Under the pieces are notes generated by a model. The model ran no database searches, was not told where the DNA came from, and saw nothing but the letters and a program-made list of their open reading frames with translations. Made by a program: the position numbers and the translations under genes. Shown piece by piece: positions 50,128 to 61,151 of a DNA stretch of 64,000 bases. Each line of letters begins with the position of its first letter. Positions within the stretch are counted from its first letter, which is position 1. The DNA comes from Faecalibacterium prausnitzii (GTDB lineage: Bacteria > Bacillota > Clostridia > Oscillospirales > Ruminococcaceae), in contig NZ_PRLE01000004.1 in NCBI RefSeq assembly GCF_003287495.1, forward strand, positions 1-64,000, given 5' to 3'.

Positions 50128-50191
50128 TACTTCTCGCAGCGTGTGCCGACACACACTGCCGCCATACAGGAACCCAATGGGATAACAACGT

Positions 50192-50265
<74 letters not shown>

Positions 50266-50272
50266 TTGATAT

Positions 50273-50350
50273 GGTGCCCATAGCGTAGTCGGTTAACGCG
50301 CCAGATTGTGGATCTGGAGACCGTGGGTTCGAGTCCCACTGGGCACCCCA
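50273..50350 (+). tRNA. tRNA-His (anticodon GTG), CCA encoded
   Basis: A 78-nt tRNA including the extra G at -1 that pairs with C73. Acceptor stem GTGCCCA/TGGGCAC, anticodon arm CCAGATTGTGGATCTGG, encoded CCA. Parts of its 3' end are repeated in inverse orientation at 50400-50415 and 50627-50644. Confidence 0.95.
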
Positions 50351-50851: not shown

Positions 50852-52177
50852 TCAGCTGTTCAACTGCTTCATGATACTCTTCACTTCCTCACTCGAGTAC
50901 CCCTCTTTCAGCAGCTCGTTCCGGATCGCACTGTCGCTCCGCCCCTGGCTGCGCAGGCGCGCCGCGCTGTAAGGCACCAGCGTCCCGCTGGAAACACCGC
51001 TCTTCCCGGCCGTCAGCCCGCTGCCGGAAAGACCGCTCTCCGCCTTGGCGCTGGCATTCGTACTAGCCTGCCGGGCACTCTGGGCCGCTTTCGACTGCTT
51101 GAGCGCCCACTCGCCCTTGGCAATGTTCAGCTTCTCCGAGGCAAGATCGTTGCGGAACTGCTGCTGGCGCATCGTATCCTGATACTCCCGTTCGGCCAGC
51201 TCGTTTTTATATTGCTGCTGGGTCAGGCTGTCCTGCCGCTGCAGCTCCTTCATCTGCTGCTCCCAGGCGGTATCGGCCCGGCTGTCCGCATAGGCCCGCT
51301 CACTGGCCGCCCGGTTATAGCGGCTGTTGGCCAGATTGCCCGCCAGCGTGCCCAGGCCCGTGGTGCCCGTGATGGCCAGCTGGACCACATCGCCCAGGAA
51401 GCCCAGCACTTTCATGGTGCGGTTGAATTTTTCCTGCTTCCGGCTGGCGGCCTGCTGCTCCTGCGCCGCATAGTAGCCATACAGGGTGTCCAGCCGATTC
51501 AGGTAATCCTGATACTGCCCGTAGTCCTGCGCATAGGCCGCGTTGTAGGCGTCGCCTTTCTGCTGCAATTGGGTGTAATAATCGGCCAGCTCATTGTTGT
51601 AGAGGTTCTGGTCGTTCTGTTCCCGGGCACCCAGCTGGTCCAGCTTGGTCACCAGCTCCTCGCCGCCGCCCGTGTAGGTATCCAGCGCCAGCCGATATAA
51701 TGTTGGGATGGCCTCACTCAGGGCCCCGATCTGCTGCTGGTAGGCCTGCTGTGCCACGCTGGCCGCATAGCTGGAGCCATAGCCGCCCGTCAGGGCTGCC
51801 GCCTGCGCGGCGGCATCGGCGCTGGCGTTGGCTGCGTTCTGGGTGTACAGCTGGGCGTACTGGCGGTAGAGCGGGTCCTGTGCGTAACTGTACCGGAAAC
51901 TGTCCCGCCCCAGCAGGGCATCCATCAGCTCGTCCATCTTGTCCTGATAAGCGCTCTGGTACTGCCCCGGGCGGTTCTGCTGCCACTGCTTCAGGTCATT
52001 GGCCGCGTCCGTCACGTTCTGGGAGGGCCGGTACTCCGCCCCGGCCAGGGCGTTCTGCACGTCGGAGCGGCTGTTCAGGTCTGCCGTGCTGTAACCGCTC
52101 TGCGGGGCAGCCGCCTGCCGCGCCGCCTCGGCCGTTTTTTGCGCCTGTGCAAGCTGCTCTTCTTTCTTTTTGCTCAT
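50852..52177 (-). CDS. Phage structural protein, probable internal/ejection protein
   Basis: A 441-residue protein rich in Ala, Gln, Tyr and Ser with long helical, coiled-coil-like stretches and a GYGSSYAASVAQQAYQQQ segment. One short hydrophobic stretch (VLGFLGDVVQLAITGTTGLG, about 255-275) could cross a membrane. Position at the end of a P22-like head gene order and this composition suit a DNA-ejection (inner core) protein. AAAGGA precedes the start. No direct homologue is recognised. Confidence 0.65.
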   Translation of the reverse strand: MSKKKEEQLAQAQKTAEAARQAAAPQSGYSTADLNSRSDVQNALAGAEYRPSQNVTDAANDLKQWQQNRPGQYQSAYQDKMDELMDALLGRDSFRYSYAQDPLYRQYAQLYTQNAANASADAAAQAAALTGGYGSSYAASVAQQAYQQQIGALSEAIPTLYRLALDTYTGGGEELVTKLDQLGAREQNDQNLYNNELADYYTQLQQKGDAYNAAYAQDYGQYQDYLNRLDTLYGYYAAQEQQAASRKQEKFNRTMKVLGFLGDVVQLAITGTTGLGTLAGNLANSRYNRAASERAYADSRADTAWEQQMKELQRQDSLTQQQYKNELAEREYQDTMRQQQFRNDLASEKLNIAKGEWALKQSKAAQSARQASTNASAKAESGLSGSGLTAGKSGVSSGTLVPYSAARLRSQGRSDSAIRNELLKEGYSSEEVKSIMKQLNS

Positions 52178-52193: not shown

Positions 52194-52382
52194 TTAGGGG
52201 AGCTTCTGCAGCCGGGTGCGCAGCTCTTCGGAGAGATTCTCCGTATCCAGGTTGCTCAGCACATACTGCAATTGCTCCTGCATCTGGTACAGGTAATTCC
52301 GCAGGGCCCGGGCGTCGTCCGGGTCCATGTTCTCGCTCAATCTGGGCAGGCCGATCTTTCCCAGCCCCGTGATGCTTGCCAT
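52194..52382 (-). CDS. Small phage protein
   Basis: A 62-residue protein, helical in its second half (DDARALRNYLYQMQEQLQYVL). Start ATG is 4 bases after the preceding gene's stop. Not recognised; position suggests a small head-completion or tail-needle component. Confidence 0.6.
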   Translation of the reverse strand: MASITGLGKIGLPRLSENMDPDDARALRNYLYQMQEQLQYVLSNLDTENLSEELRTRLQKLP

Positions 52383-52385
52383 CGT

Positions 52386-54269
52386 TCAGCCCTCCTTTCT
52401 GGCGGCAAAGATGCCGCCCTGTGCTTTTGCCATCGTCTTTGCCAGGCCGCGCAGGGTGATCTGCCCCGCTCCTTCCAGACGCAGCCGGAGCGTGCCGCAC
52501 CGCCGGGGCACAAAGGGCAGGTCGATGCTCTGCTGCTTCGCCTCCACGGTCTTTTCCGCCAGCTTCTCCCAGGGGCCGCCGTCGTAGCTGACGCTCACTT
52601 CCAGTCGGCTGGGCACTTCGGCGTCCAGCCGCAGGGTCAGCCGGGAGAGATACTGCTCCTCCGGCGCGTCCATCCCGATGTCCCCGGTGGTCAGCGCAAA
52701 GGGGATGCTCTCCTCCACGCCGTCCGTGTTCTGTCCGTCCGGCTCCCGGCTTGGGTCGGCGGCCCAGAGGGCCTGCCCGTCCCACAGGTAGAGCTGCCCG
52801 CCCGTACCGGCCATCTCCTCCGCGCGGAGGTCTTCCTCCTGCCACAGCCCCCGCTCCGTGTCATACACCAGCAGCCGGGCCGTGTTTTCTTCCCCGCTGC
52901 CGCGGGAGAGACAGAGGTAATACCGCCCGTCCAGCGCTCCGCCCAGCGCCCGCTGCACGTTGGAGAGCCGGGCGGCATCCAGCGCCGTGGACACCTTGGT
53001 GGGCAGGCTGCCATCCCAGGCCATCACCCCGTCTGCCGAGAGATAATAAAGCGTCTCGTTCAGCACACAGAGGCTGCGGCCCGCATTCCGGGCCACGCCC
53101 CGGCAGCGCAGAGAGCTGAGCTGAAAATCCGAGGGCTTGGAGCCATAGAGCTTGTGGAGGGCATTTTCCTTGAAGAACAGTGCGTACCCCATGCAGGTGG
53201 CCGCCCCGGTAAAGGGGCCGTCGCTGCCCACGGTCACGGCATAGCTGTCCGCCGCAATGCCACGGTAGGAGAACCAGTTGGTCGGGTCGCCCAGCTTGCA
53301 GGCGTAGATGACGTTTTCTTTGCTGGAGCAGCCCCACACCCGGTTGTCGCACTCGGTCACAAAATCAAGGTCGGGGATTTTCCGCTCCACCTGCACCGGG
53401 CCCTCCACGGTGTACACGGCCACCTCGCTGCCATCAATGCTGGTCCATTTGGCGGTGGTGCCGTTCTGGGCAAATTTCCCGTAGAAATGCGCCCCGCCCG
53501 GCGTTGCTTTCACCCGCAGCCAGCCCTCCTGCACCTCGTAGACGATGCGGTCCCCGTCCAGTTCCTCAAACTGGCCGCCCTGCTTTGCGGCGGTGCCCTG
53601 CACCGTCACGGTATCCCAGGCCCGGAACCCTTTCCCGATGCCCCCCGCCGTGACGCGGCAGTAGTCCAGCGGGATGGCCGACCAGTTGCCAGACACCGCG
53701 CTGTAAATTTCCAGCGTGCTGTCGCTGCTCCACGGGCGGCGGATGTCCTCCACTTTCAGGAACAGTGCTCCGTCCGCCGGGTGTTCCGGCTCGGTCCGGC
53801 CATATTCCTCCGCTTCGTAGGTCCTGCCCTCGGCGTCGCAGGGGGCAAACTCCACCTGTTCCCCGCTCCACGCGGCCCCCAGCGGCTGGAGGGTCCGCTC
53901 TGCCGTGTCAAAGGCTGCTTTGTCCGGGAAGATCAGAATTTTTGTCCCGATGCCCACCAGCGTTTTTTTGCTGTCCGCCACGGCGTTTTCCAGCGTCACC
54001 GCCGCAGCACCCGCTTCGTCGGGCGTGTAGATCAGATCTTTTCCGCAGACGGTCAGCAGCCCGTTGAGGTGATACATCCCGTTCAGGTTTTCCACCTCTC
54101 GCAGCTTCCTGCGGGGCGTCCGGGTGCTCAGGGCCGGGAAATTCCGGGCCGAAAAATTGATGCCCGCGCTGTACTCCGCCTCCGAGCAGGCGTAGGTCTC
54201 GTTCAGCCCGCCAAAGGCCCGCAGGAGGGTACGGCTGTTCTGGATGCCGCTTCGGTTTGCCAATGTCAC
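52386..54269 (-). CDS. Phage tail/head-completion protein (P22 gp10-like by position)
   Basis: A 627-residue beta-rich protein. It starts TLANRSGIQNSRTLLRAFGGLNE and has repeated short strands and WxxD/W-type motifs in the middle (WGCSSKENVIYACKLGDP, about 305-322), like a beta-propeller. GTG at 54269 is chosen because AGGAGG lies 10 bases upstream and avoids a long overlap with the previous gene. Gene order portal-scaffold-capsid-connector-this suits a podovirus tail-hub stabilisation protein. Confidence 0.6.
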   Translation of the reverse strand: MTLANRSGIQNSRTLLRAFGGLNETYACSEAEYSAGINFSARNFPALSTRTPRRKLREVENLNGMYHLNGLLTVCGKDLIYTPDEAGAAAVTLENAVADSKKTLVGIGTKILIFPDKAAFDTAERTLQPLGAAWSGEQVEFAPCDAEGRTYEAEEYGRTEPEHPADGALFLKVEDIRRPWSSDSTLEIYSAVSGNWSAIPLDYCRVTAGGIGKGFRAWDTVTVQGTAAKQGGQFEELDGDRIVYEVQEGWLRVKATPGGAHFYGKFAQNGTTAKWTSIDGSEVAVYTVEGPVQVERKIPDLDFVTECDNRVWGCSSKENVIYACKLGDPTNWFSYRGIAADSYAVTVGSDGPFTGAATCMGYALFFKENALHKLYGSKPSDFQLSSLRCRGVARNAGRSLCVLNETLYYLSADGVMAWDGSLPTKVSTALDAARLSNVQRALGGALDGRYYLCLSRGSGEENTARLLVYDTERGLWQEEDLRAEEMAGTGGQLYLWDGQALWAADPSREPDGQNTDGVEESIPFALTTGDIGMDAPEEQYLSRLTLRLDAEVPSRLEVSVSYDGGPWEKLAEKTVEAKQQSIDLPFVPRRCGTLRLRLEGAGQITLRGLAKTMAKAQGGIFAARKEG

Positions 54270-54286
54270 AGGTACTGTCCCTCCTT

Positions 54287-54670
54287 TCACCAGCGCCACC
54301 GCGCCCCGGCCCGGGGCGGGTACCGCTGCCTCAGCCAGACGGCCAGCTCTGCGGCCAGCGCGTTATATTGGGACTGCTCCCCGGCATAGCGGGCCGTCTC
54401 GCCCAGAGCGGCGTCGATCCTGGCACAGAGGTAGTGCGGGTAGAGGGCATCAAAAGGGGCCGGGGCCAGCAGTTCAGCGTCCTCCGCCAATTGATCGTTC
54501 CCTGCCCGGTCCGCGCCCACGGCATCGTAACTGCCTGCCGGGCAGTTTTTAAAAAATTTCTCCCGCAGCATCCCGTCCAGCTCCACCAGCCAGCGCTGCC
54601 GGGTGCGGGCGGTGATCCGGCACCCCGGGCGGAGCTCCTCGGCCCGGGCCAGTGCTTCTCCAACGGTCAT
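54287..54670 (-). CDS. Phage head-tail connector-like protein
   Basis: A 127-residue protein (MTVGEALARAEELRPG at the start, then YPHYLCARIDAALGE and YNALAAELAVWLRQRYPP). The pattern of short helices and the place two genes after the capsid gene match P22 gp4-type head-completion adaptors. ATG at 54670 has AGGAGG 5 bases upstream; an in-frame start 7 codons earlier overlaps the previous gene. Confidence 0.6.
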   Translation of the reverse strand: MTVGEALARAEELRPGCRITARTRQRWLVELDGMLREKFFKNCPAGSYDAVGADRAGNDQLAEDAELLAPAPFDALYPHYLCARIDAALGETARYAGEQSQYNALAAELAVWLRQRYPPRAGARWRW

Positions 54671-54680
54671 GGCTCCCTCC

Positions 54681-54887
54681 TCAAGTGTCACTCATCTCCG
54701 CCGCTGCAATGCGGGCGGCGGTGCGCTCGTCCTGCTGCTGGCTGTGCTCCAGCACCTCGGCCACCTCCGGCGGCACCTCCACTTCCACGCCCCGGCGGAT
54801 CTTATAGTTCACGCCGTTGACGCTCACAAACAGGTCTCCCTTGTAACGGCTGTTGTCCTTGAACAGCCGGATCCGAACATTTTCCAT
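54681..54887 (-). CDS. Small phage protein
   Basis: A 68-residue protein (ENVRIRLFKDNSRYKGDLFV, NGVNYKIRRGVEVEVPPEVAEVLEH). The central beta-type segment VNGVNYKIRRG is often seen in small proteins encoded next to phage capsid genes. Start at 54887 has AAGGATGG upstream; the longer frame runs into a repeat. Function unknown. Confidence 0.65.
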   Translation of the reverse strand: MENVRIRLFKDNSRYKGDLFVSVNGVNYKIRRGVEVEVPPEVAEVLEHSQQQDERTAARIAAAEMSDT

Positions 54888-54963
54888 CTTCCATCCTTTC
54901 TGCCCTCTGTCACAGGGCCCGCACTTTTGTGCATTTTCAAAACTTTCGCGGTCTGGTGCCGTG

Positions 54964-55123
54964 GCCCGGCCTGCCAAGGGCCATCCTCCCTCTGTCGCTT
55001 GCAGCGCCATCTCCCTCCGGCCGGAGGGAGTCTTTCCTGCTAGGAAAGACTCCCCCGGCCGGGGGAGGTGGCACGCAAGTGCCGAAAGGGGAACGGCTGT
55101 CGAGCGATCGCGAGACTGAGAGG
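54964..55123 (-). repeat. Mosaic palindromic intergenic repeat (copy 6)
   Basis: Fills the gap between the capsid gene and the next phage gene. Contains GGCCTGCCAAGGGCCATCC, two nested palindromes (CTCCCTCCGGCCGGAGGGAG and CTCCCCCGGCCGGGGGAG), and CGAGCGATCGCGAGACTGAG. Shares 51 bp with copy 4 with one difference. Confidence 0.8.
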
Positions 55124-55143: not shown

Positions 55144-56163
55144 TTAGTTCGCCGTCACCATGCCGGAGTAGCTGGACACACTCTCAATGCGCACCATGTA
55201 CTGCTCCACCAGACGCTCCGCCGCGCGCATTCCTTTCCAGCCCACGGAGGCGCGCTGGTTCAGCGGGTCGTCGCCGTAGCCCAGCTGCTTGACGATGTGC
55301 TCCAGGCCGCCGCCCTCCAGCTCGGTCACGCCGTAGGCGTGGGCACCCAGCACCAGCGTGCCAAAGACAGCCAGACCCGCGGGGCAGGTCTCATCCCGCC
55401 AGATCTTGGCCTCGCTGGTCTCCACGAAGCGGATGTTGCCCAGCTTGCCGATCTCGCCGCGGTACATGGTATCCGGGTCGGCGTACTTGTGCACCTCCAC
55501 AAACTCCTTGCTGGTCTTCAGGTCGTAGGCCGCATAGGGGTGGATGATGGCAATGTAGCTGTCACCGATGGGGTCCGCGTTCATGGCCCCCAGCTGTGCC
55601 GCGGCCCGGAAGAAGATCTTCGGGGTCAGGGTGCAGGTCTTGTCCAGCGCCTTGCGGCTGTTCACGGCCGTCTCGGTACCGTCCTCCGCCACCTTGGGCA
55701 CATAGAGGACATTGGTGCCGCCTGCCAGCACGTCGCGGGTGATGCTGTCCATGGTGCGGCCCGCCTGGCTGGCCAGCACGCGGGTGGCCTGCACCACATT
55801 GTTGTCAATGGCCGTCATCTGGAGCACATCGGTCAGCGGGGTCCAGCCGCCATACTGGTGCAGGTCGCTGGTGATCGTGGTCACGTTCAGGGTCTGGCCA
55901 TTGGGGGTCACGCCCTCCGTCAGAGGCGTGGAGGCCTTGGGCAGGCTGTCGTACTTGCGGAATTCAATGGTCTTACCGCCGTTCTGGGGCACGGGATAGT
56001 AGTCCGCAAACTGGTCATGCACAAGGCGGGGCTCTGCCTGGTCGATGAGGCGCTTCTCGTAAAAGGTCTTCATCTCCTTGGTCATGGTGGCCGTGGTGTT
56101 GTTCAGGCTGGCCGACGCATCCGCAAACCGCTGGAGATCGATCTTCATTTCGTAGTTTTTCAT
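55144..56163 (-). CDS. Phage major capsid protein, N4-gp56 type
   Basis: A 339-residue protein of the N4-gp56 capsid family: NNGGKTIEFRKY-like segment (about 61-70), YGGWTPLTDVLQMTA (about 104-118) and GRTMDSITRDVLAGGTN (about 135-151). The N-terminus contains IDLQRFA (residues 8-14), which matches the DLQxFA cleavage motif of Prp proteases, so the first 14 residues are probably removed by the neighbouring Prp fusion. AAAGGA lies 8 bases upstream. Confidence 0.85.
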   Translation of the reverse strand: MKNYEMKIDLQRFADASASLNNTTATMTKEMKTFYEKRLIDQAEPRLVHDQFADYYPVPQNGGKTIEFRKYDSLPKASTPLTEGVTPNGQTLNVTTITSDLHQYGGWTPLTDVLQMTAIDNNVVQATRVLASQAGRTMDSITRDVLAGGTNVLYVPKVAEDGTETAVNSRKALDKTCTLTPKIFFRAAAQLGAMNADPIGDSYIAIIHPYAAYDLKTSKEFVEVHKYADPDTMYRGEIGKLGNIRFVETSEAKIWRDETCPAGLAVFGTLVLGAHAYGVTELEGGGLEHIVKQLGYGDDPLNQRASVGWKGMRAAERLVEQYMVRIESVSSYSGMVTAN

Positions 56164-56229
56164 GCTGTTTGTCCTTTCTGTATCCGTAAAATGCTTTTTA
56201 AAAGAGGAAATTTCCTCTTACATTGATTC

Positions 56230-56294
56230 TTGGCTCCCCTAATCGGGGAGCTCCGCAAGGCGCTGGCGAAGCCAGACCGCAGCGGTGAGAGGTT
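56230..56294 (-). repeat. Mosaic palindromic intergenic repeat (copy 7, short form)
   Basis: GGCTCCCCTaatcGGGGAGCtCC, then GCTGGCGAAGCCAG and GCAGCGGTGAGAGGTT. Lies between the Prp-scaffold gene and the capsid gene. Confidence 0.65.
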
Positions 56295-57270
56295 AAAACT
56301 TGATTTGCACCCCGTGCAGCGCCTGCCGCTCCAGCGCTTCCCGCTGGGCCCGGGTCATGCTGGCCACGTCCGCTCTGGTCACCGCCGCGCTGCCGGGGCG
56401 GGTGCCGTTTTCCGCCGGGCGGGAGGCCCGCTGCCGGATCCGCTCCACCACCCCCTGCTCCACGGTCCGGGCCGTCTGGCGCAGGGCATCGCTGTAATGG
56501 GCAAGACGGTAGGCATCCCCCAGCCGCATCCCGGGCAGCTGCATCAGGCGGCGCATCTCCGGGTCCCGCAGCTCTGCTTTCAGGGAGAAGCCCGGCACGT
56601 CCCGGCGCAGCAGGGCTTCCTCCGCCGCCCACTGGGCGTGCAGCTGCTCCACAAAACCACGGCCCGGTGCGGGCAGACGGGGCGGCAGGCGTGTTTCCGG
56701 CACTTCCGGTGCTGTGGGCTCTGCCGCCGGTTCCGGCTGCTCTGTTTCCCCGGCTTCTTCTGCCACTGCTTCCCGCGGCGGCTGCGCCGGGGCCTCTGCC
56801 TCCGCTGCTTTCATCGTGCCCGACGCAATGGCCTGCTGCTGTTGGGCGCGGCTCAGCGCCGGAGCAGAAGCAGGCGGTGGGGCGGCACCGCCCTCCCCCT
56901 CCGCAAACAGCTGCAGGTCCACCATGCACTGCTCCCCGCGGCCGCTCAGGTCCGCAAAGCGCACGTTGTCCGGGTAGCGCTCTGCCAGCAGGGCAAAACC
57001 TGCCTTGGCAAATTCAAACGCTCCCTCCACCCAGGGCTTCCGCGGGGCAGCCGCTGTCACGGCCAGGCGCGGGCCCTCCGGCTCGTCCCAGGCATCGCTT
57101 TTGGCACTTTCCTCCCCGGCCAGCAGATAGACCAGCGTCTGCATCAGGGTGCTTGCCCCGGCGCACACGATGTCCTGCCCGGCCGGGGCATAGCCCGCAT
57201 GGCCCGCCGCTTCCAGCCGGAGGGTCGGGCCGCTGGGGCCGTCCAGTTCGGTATAGGTCACTTTGATCAT
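56293..57270 (-). CDS. Prp-like cysteine protease fused to a phage scaffold-like domain
   Basis: A 325-residue protein. Residues 1-110 match the Prp (YsxB) family: His24 in AGHAGYAPAG and Cys36 in DIVCAGAS, 12 residues apart as in the known Prp dyad. Residues 117-123 (VDLQLFA) match the Prp cleavage motif, so the protein can probably cut itself. The rest is Ala/Glu/Pro-rich with a helical C-terminus (RREALERQALHGVQ), like a scaffold. It lies between portal and capsid genes. The start overlaps the portal stop (ATGA). Confidence 0.85.
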   Translation of the reverse strand: MIKVTYTELDGPSGPTLRLEAAGHAGYAPAGQDIVCAGASTLMQTLVYLLAGEESAKSDAWDEPEGPRLAVTAAAPRKPWVEGAFEFAKAGFALLAERYPDNVRFADLSGRGEQCMVDLQLFAEGEGGAAPPPASAPALSRAQQQQAIASGTMKAAEAEAPAQPPREAVAEEAGETEQPEPAAEPTAPEVPETRLPPRLPAPGRGFVEQLHAQWAAEEALLRRDVPGFSLKAELRDPEMRRLMQLPGMRLGDAYRLAHYSDALRQTARTVEQGVVERIRQRASRPAENGTRPGSAAVTRADVASMTRAQREALERQALHGVQIKF

Positions 57271-59006
57271 GAAACCGCTCCTTTCATCGCTCTTGCCTCT
57301 GCCGCCGTGCTCAGGTTCTCTCCCGGGCCGCTCAGGGGCCCTTGTTTCAACTGCACCAGCTGGCTCTGCAGCTGCTCCAGCCGCTGGGCCAGCGTGCCGT
57401 TCTGGCGCACCCGCTGGCGGACTTTTTCAATGCCCTCAAAATCCATCATTTCCAGCGCCGCCAATGCAGCGTCCGCGTTCCGCGGGGCAAAGAACCCCAG
57501 CTGGTAGCACTCTTTTGCCGTCTCATTCTGGGAGAGGCGGCTGAACGTTGATTTCTTCTCCGCGCTGACCACGATATCAAAAATGGGCTCCCGGCTGCCC
57601 AGCTCCACACCGCCCACACCGGGCAGGGCCTGTGCCCGGAGCGCCACGCCGGAAAAGTGCACGAACTCGCTCCTGCCCGTCTCCCCGATGATCCGGAAAA
57701 CGCGCTCCTCGTCGTAGAACTGCCGCATCAGGTCCATGATGAGGTAGCATTCTTTGGCAAAGGCCCGGTAAGCGCTCTTGAGCATATCACGGGAGAGCTT
57801 GCTGCCCGCCTCCTGCAGCGCCGCAATGGCCGAAGCCGCCGTCACGCCGCCCGCGGTGCCGCCCTGGGTCATGTCCCGGTTGCCGCTGATCTCTTTCAGC
57901 TCCTCAATGCGGCTGTTGCGGTAGCTCAGGCTGTTGCCCTGCAGGCCGGTGGTCTGTAAGGGCCGGAAACTGTCGTCTCCCAGCCGCCCCACCACATGCA
58001 CGATGTCCCGGGAGAAGTCCGCCAGCTCTTCCTCGTTCACCCCCGCCGCGTCGCTCAGCACATACCGCTGTTTGGAGGAGAGCAGGACGTTCTCGTCCAT
58101 GGCGTGGTTCATCCGGTCAATGGCGGTCTGGCACTCTTTCATCACGTCGATGTACCCAAAACCCGCCGGGCTGTCCTCCTCCACAAACAGCGGGTCAAAC
58201 ACAAACGGATACTGGCCGTGGTCGTAAAAACCGCGTCCGGCGTATTCCGGGTCGTTCTCGCTGGCGTAGAGCACCACCCCGTTGCAGAACTTGCAGTAGT
58301 GGAGCACCCGGCGGCCCTCCGCGTTCCGCTTTTTGTAGTACCAGTCCACCACCACGCTCTTGCCGTTGGTGTCCAGCCCGCCGTCGTGGAGGTAGTGGGG
58401 CACCTCCAGCGCGCTGGTGCTGTGGCCCTCCAACTGAGGCCAGCGCTCGGTCAGCTGGTCCGTATCTTCCAGGCTCAGGGAGAAAAAGTTGGGTGACGCC
58501 TGGATATCGTCCACGCCCGGCTCCCAGTAGAGCATCAGCAGGTTCATGGGCCGCACCGTGATCTCGCCCACACCGCCCCGCTGTTCCGGGTCCCAGAACA
58601 CCCCCTTGACGCCGGTGCCCTGCTTGAGCTTGCGCCACCAGGTGTCGCTGTACACCTGCTCATAGTCCGCCTGTTCCAGCACCACAGGCAGCACGCTGGA
58701 AAGCACCCGCGCGGTCTGCTCATCGTCCGGGGCCCGGGGCAGTACATTGGGGGCCGGGTAGTTGTCCATGGCGTCGGCATGCTTGTTGGCAATGGAGTTG
58801 AACAACCACCCGCTGGACGGCTGAGGCTTGCCCTCCATCATGGGGTTCTGGTAATTTTTCCAGTGCCCCATCCGAAACCACAGCTCGTTGTCCACCAGCC
58901 GTTGGTCCAGCGCCGCCTTGCCGACCTTGTACTTCTGCAAGATCTGCTCTGCCCGCGCCACCTCCTCCGCCCCGATGGGCGGCTTGTCGGTCCATAGCTC
59001 TGTCAT
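57267..59006 (-). CDS. Phage portal protein (P22-type)
   Basis: A 579-residue portal subunit. N-terminal WFRMGHWKNYQNPM, central KGVFWDPEQRGGVGEI and VVVDWYYKKRNAEG, C-terminal AKECYLIMDLMRQFYDEERVF; the last 60 residues are coiled coil (RLEQLQSQLVQLKQ). Twelve copies form the DNA entry ring. GGAGG lies 7 bases upstream. It sits between terL and the Prp fusion, the standard order. Confidence 0.85.
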   Translation of the reverse strand: MTELWTDKPPIGAEEVARAEQILQKYKVGKAALDQRLVDNELWFRMGHWKNYQNPMMEGKPQPSSGWLFNSIANKHADAMDNYPAPNVLPRAPDDEQTARVLSSVLPVVLEQADYEQVYSDTWWRKLKQGTGVKGVFWDPEQRGGVGEITVRPMNLLMLYWEPGVDDIQASPNFFSLSLEDTDQLTERWPQLEGHSTSALEVPHYLHDGGLDTNGKSVVVDWYYKKRNAEGRRVLHYCKFCNGVVLYASENDPEYAGRGFYDHGQYPFVFDPLFVEEDSPAGFGYIDVMKECQTAIDRMNHAMDENVLLSSKQRYVLSDAAGVNEEELADFSRDIVHVVGRLGDDSFRPLQTTGLQGNSLSYRNSRIEELKEISGNRDMTQGGTAGGVTAASAIAALQEAGSKLSRDMLKSAYRAFAKECYLIMDLMRQFYDEERVFRIIGETGRSEFVHFSGVALRAQALPGVGGVELGSREPIFDIVVSAEKKSTFSRLSQNETAKECYQLGFFAPRNADAALAALEMMDFEGIEKVRQRVRQNGTLAQRLEQLQSQLVQLKQGPLSGPGENLSTAAEARAMKGAVS

Positions 59007-59273: not shown

Positions 59274-60719
59274 TTATACCCTATAAACCCTCGCCCTTTT
59301 GTGCAGCTCCAGCGGGTCATCCCGGAGGGGCGGCACCGTCTTCTGCCGGGGCGGCGCGATGGGATGTTCCATCAGCACATAGCGGCACTCGTCGTAAATG
59401 TGGTCTTCCTGCCGGGTGTCGATGTCCTCCACATTGCTCTCGTCGTACACCAGGTTCGGGATGGTCCGGATGAAATGCCGACAGGTGCTGAACACCTGAA
59501 ACATCGGCCTGCCCTCCCCGTCAAAGGCCAGCCGGTAGTGGAACTGCATCTTGCCCGCCAGCCGGGTGTGGTCGCCGGGCCGCCAGTGCAGGAAATTGGG
59601 CGCCCGCTCCATCATCGCCGCGATGCTCTCGCCCCGGCTCTCGTCAAAGATGGCAGGATCCGCGATGCCCTGAATGACCCGCCCCCGGAGCAGCGGGTCG
59701 TTCTGCTCCACTTCCCGGATTTGTCTTGCCTGCTCCACCGGGTCGATGCGCAGGCCCTCGTTGGGGCGTCCGGTGCAGCCGTACAGCTCCTTGACGCGGT
59801 AGAGCCGCCCCTCTTCGTCCGCCGCGTACCATCCCACCGAGAACGGCTTGGAGAAACCGAAATCGTAACCCCGGTAAATTTTCCAGTGCTTCGGGATGGC
59901 AAACGGCGCAATGACATGGGTCCAGCGCTGGTCGTCGTAGTGGGCCGGGTCGTTCCGCCACTCGGTGAACACCTGCCCCTGAAAGCTGTCCCAGCTGCCG
60001 TAGAGCAGGGCCTGCTTTTCCGCTTCCGGCAGGCTGGCCAGAGCCGCCAGATAATCCGGGTCGTTTTCCAGCAGGGCCGGGTTATCGAACACGCTGGACG
60101 GGATGAACACCCGCGCCCGTTTCAGTTTTTTCTCCGTGCCATCCGGCATCCGCACCGGGTATTCTTCCACGATGGGCGTACCGGGCGGGGCCGGTGTGAT
60201 AAACCGGGCCTTGACCCAGCCGTGCCCCACCCCGCCGGGGTTGGTGGTGGCCCGGAGATACACCCGGGTGCCCGGGCCGGTAGGGCGGTTGCGGCTCATC
60301 AGGTAGCTGTACTCTTCCCATTCAAAGTGGGTAAGCTCATCAAAGCCGATAAAATCAAAGGCCTTGCCCTGATAGTTCGTCCGGTCTTTGGTGTATTGCA
60401 GGGAGCCAAAATAAATCTTCGCCCCGCTGGGGAACACCCACACATGGCTGGTGGCGTTGTACTGCGCCCCGGGGAATGCCCGGCGGTAGTACAGCTGGCT
60501 TTTGTCCACAAGGTCGGTCAATTGCGGGTAAGTCTTGCGGAGGATGAGGGCCCGGTAGTGCGGGATGTGCACCTGCCGCAGCGCCTCGATCACCAGCGCG
60601 TCGCTCTTGCCGCCGCCTGCCGCCCCGCCGTAGAGGGCTTCCGGCTCCGGCCGCCGCATAAATTCCAGCTGCCTCGGCTGGGGCCGCCAGACCACGGCGG
60701 CTCTTTTTGGTTCACTCAT
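59274..60719 (-). CDS. terL: Phage terminase large subunit
   Basis: A 481-residue packaging ATPase/nuclease. Walker A GGAAGGGKS (31-39), Walker B with FIGFDELTHFEW (about 117-128), coupling motif in RATTNPGG, and a C-terminal RNase H-like nuclease region (RGYDFGFSKPFS, IADPAIFD). AGGAGG-like GGAGGAAGC precedes the ATG, which overlaps the stop of the small gene upstream (ATGA). Confidence 0.92.
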   Translation of the reverse strand: MSEPKRAAVVWRPQPRQLEFMRRPEPEALYGGAAGGGKSDALVIEALRQVHIPHYRALILRKTYPQLTDLVDKSQLYYRRAFPGAQYNATSHVWVFPSGAKIYFGSLQYTKDRTNYQGKAFDFIGFDELTHFEWEEYSYLMSRNRPTGPGTRVYLRATTNPGGVGHGWVKARFITPAPPGTPIVEEYPVRMPDGTEKKLKRARVFIPSSVFDNPALLENDPDYLAALASLPEAEKQALLYGSWDSFQGQVFTEWRNDPAHYDDQRWTHVIAPFAIPKHWKIYRGYDFGFSKPFSVGWYAADEEGRLYRVKELYGCTGRPNEGLRIDPVEQARQIREVEQNDPLLRGRVIQGIADPAIFDESRGESIAAMMERAPNFLHWRPGDHTRLAGKMQFHYRLAFDGEGRPMFQVFSTCRHFIRTIPNLVYDESNVEDIDTRQEDHIYDECRYVLMEHPIAPPRQKTVPPLRDDPLELHKRARVYRV

Positions 60720-61012
60720 GCTTCCTCCACCGACGGCAGCAGCACCACGCCGCAGACCGTGCCCTCAGCCTCTACGCCCTGCTCGTTCAGCGCCCTCGCC
60801 ACCGCGGCCAGGTCTTTTAAAACAGCGGTGGCTTCTTTCAGTCCCTTGAAGCTGCCGGGGTCTGCCGGGCCGTCTTTGTCCGCTGCCTTTCTGGCCGTTT
60901 TCTGCCGGGCGTTCAGCTCCCGGACTTCCTGCGCCAGCAAGGTACTCAGGGTGTCGGTGGCCCGCTGTAAGCTTTCCATGCTCTTACTGGCGGGCTGTTT
61001 TGTCTGCCCCAT
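60716..61012 (-). CDS. Probable small terminase subunit or head protein
   Basis: A 98-residue helical protein (SMESLQRATDTLSTLLAQEV, KEATAVLKDLAAVARALNEQ). It directly precedes and overlaps terL, the usual place of terS. Sequence alone does not show a DNA-binding domain. ATG at 61012 is a choice among several; the frame is open to 61147. Confidence 0.55.
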   Translation of the reverse strand: MGQTKQPASKSMESLQRATDTLSTLLAQEVRELNARQKTARKAADKDGPADPGSFKGLKEATAVLKDLAAVARALNEQGVEAEGTVCGVVLLPSVEEA

Positions 61013-61151
61013 CCTGGATTCTTCACTTCCTTTCCTGTTTGGCTTGGCAACAGGATACCATAGCGTTCCGCCCCCCAACAGTGCACATTTTTCAGATACT
61101 TTTTGCTTATTTTTGATTCGATTATCCAAATTGTATAATAAAGGCATATAA

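Follow-up and report, generated by a model that had tools for sequence, protein, structure and literature searches.

A Prp cysteine protease fused to a scaffold-like domain in a Faecalibacterium gene cluster matching the gene transfer agent FpGTA I

In the window, the 64 kb stretch of Faecalibacterium prausnitzii DNA analysed here, a single gene joins a Prp-type cysteine protease to a scaffold-like C-terminal domain and precedes a capsid gene that carries the same type of cleavage motif. We consider it likely, from gene content and sequence comparison, that this locus represents the head-gene cluster of FpGTA I, a gene transfer agent of Faecalibacterium described by Borodovich et al. (January 2026, PMC12946183), and that the Prp domain fused to the scaffold N terminus is its assembly and maturation protease.

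Results

Architecture of the Prp-scaffold fusion

The fusion and capsid genes belong to a ten-gene, ~10.3 kb cluster that runs from 61147 down to 50852. The features of the cluster and its flanks are listed below, with a slash marking each putative cut.

50191..50350 (+), tRNA-Arg and tRNA-His, conserved cluster flank
50852..52177 (-), 441-aa conserved cluster gene, weak virion-protein match
52194..52382 (-), 62-aa gene, conserved across loci
52386..54299 (-), 637-aa internal-virion/tail-type protein (phrog_511)
54287..54691 (-), 134-aa conserved cluster gene (phrog_12105)
54681..55010 (-), 109-aa conserved cluster gene (phrog_15239)
55144..56163 (-), major capsid protein (phrog_1357 major head protein, E 3e-83; alignment)
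56122..56142 (-), putative capsid N-terminal cleavage site IDLQRF/A (sequence motif)
56293..57270 (-), Prp-scaffold fusion gene, 325 aa (profile matches, alignment, AlphaFold model)
56296..56661 (-), helical C-terminal scaffold-like domain, aa 204-325 (phrog_13908, model)
56902..56922 (-), putative junction cleavage site VDLQLF/A, aa 117-123 (sequence motif)
56923..56937 (-), possible internal start of a nested scaffold, suggestive: ATG 56923-56925, Shine-Dalgarno (SD)-like GGGGAG 56932-56937
56941..57270 (-), Prp cysteine protease domain, aa 1-110 (Pfam, alignment, model)
57163-57165, 57172-57174 and 57199-57201 (-), Prp residues Cys36, Asp33 and His24, respectively
57267..59006 (-), P22-like portal (profile matches)
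59274..60719 (-), large terminase, TerL (profile matches)
60716..61147 (-), small ORF at the TerS position, 143 aa
61253..63937 (-), host M16/PreP peptidase, opposite flank

The Pfam family Peptidase_Prp (PF04327) covers residues 1-103 of the fusion (E 5e-13, 49.5 bits against a curated cut-off of 27). His24 and Cys36 have the same spacing as in SaPrp, the structural Asp33 is also present, and all three residues are invariant in an alignment of 20 fusions. In the AlphaFold model (mean pLDDT 73), a confident Prp domain is followed by a disordered linker and C-terminal helices; because the pTM is only 0.39, the placement of the protease relative to the motif is not fixed by the model. PDB matches of the model with E <= 0.001 comprise 14 chains, all of them Prp, among them 7jvs and 7kld, which are complexes from S. 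aureus. The C terminus of the fusion matches a phage family of unknown function, phrog_13908 (E 6e-19), and we name it scaffold-like because of this match and its place between the portal and capsid genes; gene position and the helical prediction point to a scaffold role. Pfam, alignment and structure matches agree on the architecture given in a preliminary description of this DNA, an intact Prp (His24, Cys36) joined through VDLQLFA to a scaffold-like C terminus. The search for further fusions proposed there found them in 18 Faecalibacterium records and in virome contigs, a recurrence that rules out an assembly artefact joining two genes. Among named species genomes, full-length matches are confined to Faecalibacterium (18 loci, L057-L074).

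The next gene encodes, as had been proposed, a capsid protein with an N-terminal IDLQRFA, identified by its phrog_1357 match; the protein (ORF 55144-56163(-)) begins MKNYEMKIDLQRFAD. A six-frame search of the window for LQxF[AG] gives only two sites, one where the two parts of the fusion join and one at the capsid N terminus, and the Prp domain would be expected to cleave such LQxF/A sites.

Met116 (ATG) lies immediately before the junction motif and itself follows GGGGAG at a distance of six bases. It is invariant in the 20 aligned fusions, where neighbouring residues vary, although the methionine is missing before the motif in some other fusions, among them L113, L114 and L150. The SD-like pairing upstream of Met116 averages -6.1 kcal/mol, compared with a background of -3.9 kcal/mol in the same ORFs and -11.4 kcal/mol at the Prp starts. 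These features are at most suggestive of an internal start that yields free scaffold.

A fixed, vertically inherited cluster

TerL is found in all 31 Faecalibacterium species genomes, four of which (G081, G312, G313 and G319) hold only a divergent (~76-78%) copy. In most sampled species the cluster occupies one fixed locus and has co-diverged with rpoB. Across 18 species, distances follow those of rpoB (Mantel r 0.87 for TerL, 0.89 for portal and 0.77 for capsid; 0/5000 permutations each), and 11 of 15 splits are common to the cluster genes and rpoB. dN/dS over the cluster genes is 0.03-0.21, indicating purifying selection; for the Prp and scaffold parts it was measurable in two pairs only, which give 0.03 and 0.12 for the Prp domain. 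Gene order does not vary among the Faecalibacterium clusters that were examined. Beside the cluster, in the window and 12 other loci, lie tRNA-Arg/tRNA-His, PAP2, DUF1643 and a Bmp gene; these flanks were not seen within the stretch read in a few more distant species, and the flank with PreP varies more. The window cluster has no adjacent integrase, lysis or replication genes.

As described in the main text of its report, FpGTA I is a near-ubiquitous element of the genus, ~10 kb long, with ten ORFs that include TerS, TerL, portal, scaffold and capsid and without replication genes, and its particles carry random ~8.5 kb host DNA in F. prausnitzii ATCC 27766 (PMC12946183). Judged from this published gene content, the window cluster agrees with FpGTA I in genes, number of ORFs (ten) and length (~10 kb), as it does in vertical inheritance and near-universal presence in Faecalibacterium. 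The 143-aa ORF has no convincing family match in Pfam and phrog profile searches, and its conserved position matches the place of TerS in FpGTA I (PMC12946183). The main text of the FpGTA report annotates 'head scaffolding' only, and the words 'protease', 'Prp' and 'cysteine' are absent from it (PMC12946183); our analysis adds the Prp domain and the cleavage motifs. What had been taken for a phage is instead a cluster at a fixed chromosomal position, inherited vertically and matching FpGTA I.

Prp and the cleavage motif occur together

Among family loci with a capsid of the window type, 12 combine Prp with an LxxF-type motif at the N terminus and another 12 lack both; the motif stands without Prp in one (L084), and Prp without the motif in none. 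The divergent Prp at L091 was spotted by eye and then recovered with an iterated profile. We scored capsid N termini with a matrix built from 13 distinct host L27 cleavage sites, using 76 loci that include virome loci and were dereplicated at 90% capsid identity. The median score is 13.3 in the 61 loci with Prp and -6.8 in the 15 without (p 2e-6), and scaffold and capsid motifs from one locus match each other at 3.0 of 4 positions, compared with 2.43 after shuffling (0/20000 shuffles as high), p-values that overstate the support because related loci share ancestry and are not independent. Low-scoring loci with Prp have variant capsid motifs (for example LNLF/D, LRLF/D and LHLF/E), and variant motifs are common to the scaffold and capsid of one locus. 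The motif is also conserved in relatives, with LQ[LMF]F[AG] kept in 39 of 42 distinct long (fused-type) Prp ORFs and the H..D.xC pattern in 41 of 42. In the isolated phages phiFL3A, BL3, PLgT-1 and DO134P1, which have other capsid types, a separate Prp accompanies tagged scaffold and capsid proteins. The proposal that a Prp homologue serves as the prohead protease has thus gained comparative rather than experimental support, from covariation and motif retention, and cleavage is the step that we infer.

Several loci depart from the common arrangement. L084 and L170 have capsids with a canonical motif and no Prp found adjacent; it is possible that these capsids rely on a host Prp as in 80alpha, and the host of L084 (G162) has one, with an additional Prp-like match ~19 kb off (C1:741806). 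In two Faecalibacterium genomes (G081 and G313), the sole copy (L222 and L229) appears with Prp and scaffold as separate genes, which may be a pre-fusion state or a different element; since some Faecalibacterium keep the two apart (L222), the fusion is not essential. Some fusions contain two LQxFA motifs 141 nt apart (L001:3958-4110 and L006:3355-3507), and the 47-aa insert between them resembles an out-of-frame duplication. At L215 the frame is broken, splitting Prp from scaffold.

Proposed maturation pathway and alternatives

In the proposed pathway, the scaffold part would bring the fused protease inside the procapsid. Cleavage by Prp would follow, on the C-terminal side of Phe in LQxF/A: at the fusion junction, freeing the scaffold from the protease, and at the capsid N terminus, where the window protein would lose its first 13 residues, MKNYEMKIDLQRF. 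The cuts and their timing are predictions, as is the nested product: the internal ATG may also give free scaffold, leaving the fusion as a minor, enzyme-carrying form. The Prp of the cluster would act on particle proteins only, because the host has no chromosomal Prp and no cleavable L27.

The preliminary description had also tied particle assembly to ribosome assembly, with the element's Prp trimming host L27 or a host Prp trimming the capsid. Such a link is possible in principle in hosts with a long L27, since Prp is present in 133/133 long-L27 genomes among those listed in a survey of 298 family genomes, and phage 80alpha does employ the host Prp (PMC5744158). In this host, however, L27 begins MAHKKGVGSTKNGRD, is short and has neither an N-terminal extension nor the LQxFA motif looked for there; rplU and rpmA are adjacent with no prp between them, and the only two PF04327 genes of the genome are those of the window cluster and one prophage. 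The element's Prp consequently has no target in L27, and no host Prp is available for capsid cleavage. The genus follows the same pattern: PF04327 matches occur in 30/31 Faecalibacterium genomes, nearly always singly and mostly in a fused-length frame of 310-490 aa, and L27 matches begin past the extension in most of the 31 genomes, the exceptions starting at query position 5 in three draft genomes and 16 in one. Sequence therefore refutes the ribosome link for this host, and we regard it as barely conceivable. Among the genomes listed, 16 have a short L27, of which five, all Faecalibacterium, have cluster or prophage Prp only and 11 have no Prp. These 11 lie outside Faecalibacterium and have no PF04327 match (G018, G020, G024, G025, G052, G134, G137, G206, G208, G260 and G262), so the Prp/long-L27 pair is missing beyond this genus too.

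Rather than a domesticated element, the cluster could be an ordinary prophage in which Prp is the phage's own prohead protease. A related true prophage does reside in the same genome (on C8), with an integrase, a 472-aa Prp-scaffold fusion and a giant 3620-aa protein with MuF_C and PBECR5 (L225; L260:1925-12787; L261:6992-8125), and the Prp-scaffold module therefore occurs in phages as well. The window cluster differs in having no integrase, lysis or replication gene beside it, in its near-universal presence and in its match to FpGTA I; its fixed locus and congruence with rpoB led us to reject the prophage reading, which we hold to be very improbable. The fusion might also act mainly as a chaperone or scaffold, with vestigial Prp catalysis and particles forming without cleavage. 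Phage 80alpha assembles and matures whether or not CP is cleaved, and its viable capsids do not require SP cleavage (PMC5744158), so Prp processing may be dispensable here too; for SaPrp, a role resembling that of a chaperone has been suggested (PMC9405229). Vestigial catalysis nevertheless seems unlikely given the invariance of H24, D33 and C36, the low dN/dS of the Prp domain in both measurable pairs, and the retention of an LQxFA-type motif that covaries between scaffold and capsid.

Discussion

It is established that host Prp cleaves the scaffold and capsid proteins of S. aureus phage 80alpha between F and A (PMC5744158). The N-terminal motifs of both 80alpha proteins are related to those of the window cluster, but the 80alpha protease is the host ribosomal Prp, whereas that of the cluster is element-encoded, fused to a scaffold-like domain and found in a host without ribosomal Prp. 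Compared with cellular Prp/YsxB (MEROPS C108, PF04327), the cluster Prp is alike in fold, catalytic residues and target motif; it differs in lying away from rpmA, in having no L27 substrate in its host and in its scaffold tail. By its description in PMC9405229, the clan CR cysteine protease of phage Cp-1, of the same clan as Prp, likewise trims the capsid N terminus, removing about 40 residues. The putative Prp of phiFL3A, BL3 and PLgT-1 (annotated 'peptidase', DUF464) and of DO134P1 (an unannotated ORF) lies downstream of the portal, as in the cluster, and LQxFA-type motifs again mark scaffold and capsid (LQVFT in the DO134P1 capsid), but here Prp is a separate gene rather than a fused one. 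Protease and scaffold also share one chain, sometimes with a nested scaffold, in lambda C/Nu3, P2 gpO and herpesvirus UL26/UL26.5; these proteases are serine-type, whereas the cluster has a Prp cysteine protease. Our literature search, which was thin on subscription journals, found no earlier report of a Prp-scaffold fusion or of such a GTA protease. What appears to be new, then, is that Prp and scaffold are fused, that the fusion sits in a GTA and that it is uncoupled from ribosome maturation; cleavage is its predicted activity.

The built-in Prp probably supplies the maturation step of FpGTA I, which would name a likely maturation protease for the first described gut GTA. FpGTA function also becomes testable through one catalytic residue, Cys36, since its substitution should prevent particle formation or change it. 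The cluster is also an example of Prp decoupled from ribosome assembly. Phages that differ in capsid type share the Prp and LQxFA-tag module, and this suggests that the role of Prp in head processing is not an accident of 80alpha. A broader picture, which we offer tentatively and with some doubt, is that Faecalibacterium has no ribosomal Prp/long-L27 pair, that its fixed GTA brings a Prp-scaffold fusion, and that one Prp serves solely for maturation in a two-form protease-scaffold/scaffold arrangement. For the host, having no Prp of its own may give protection against Prp-reliant phages and favour phages that carry their own Prp.
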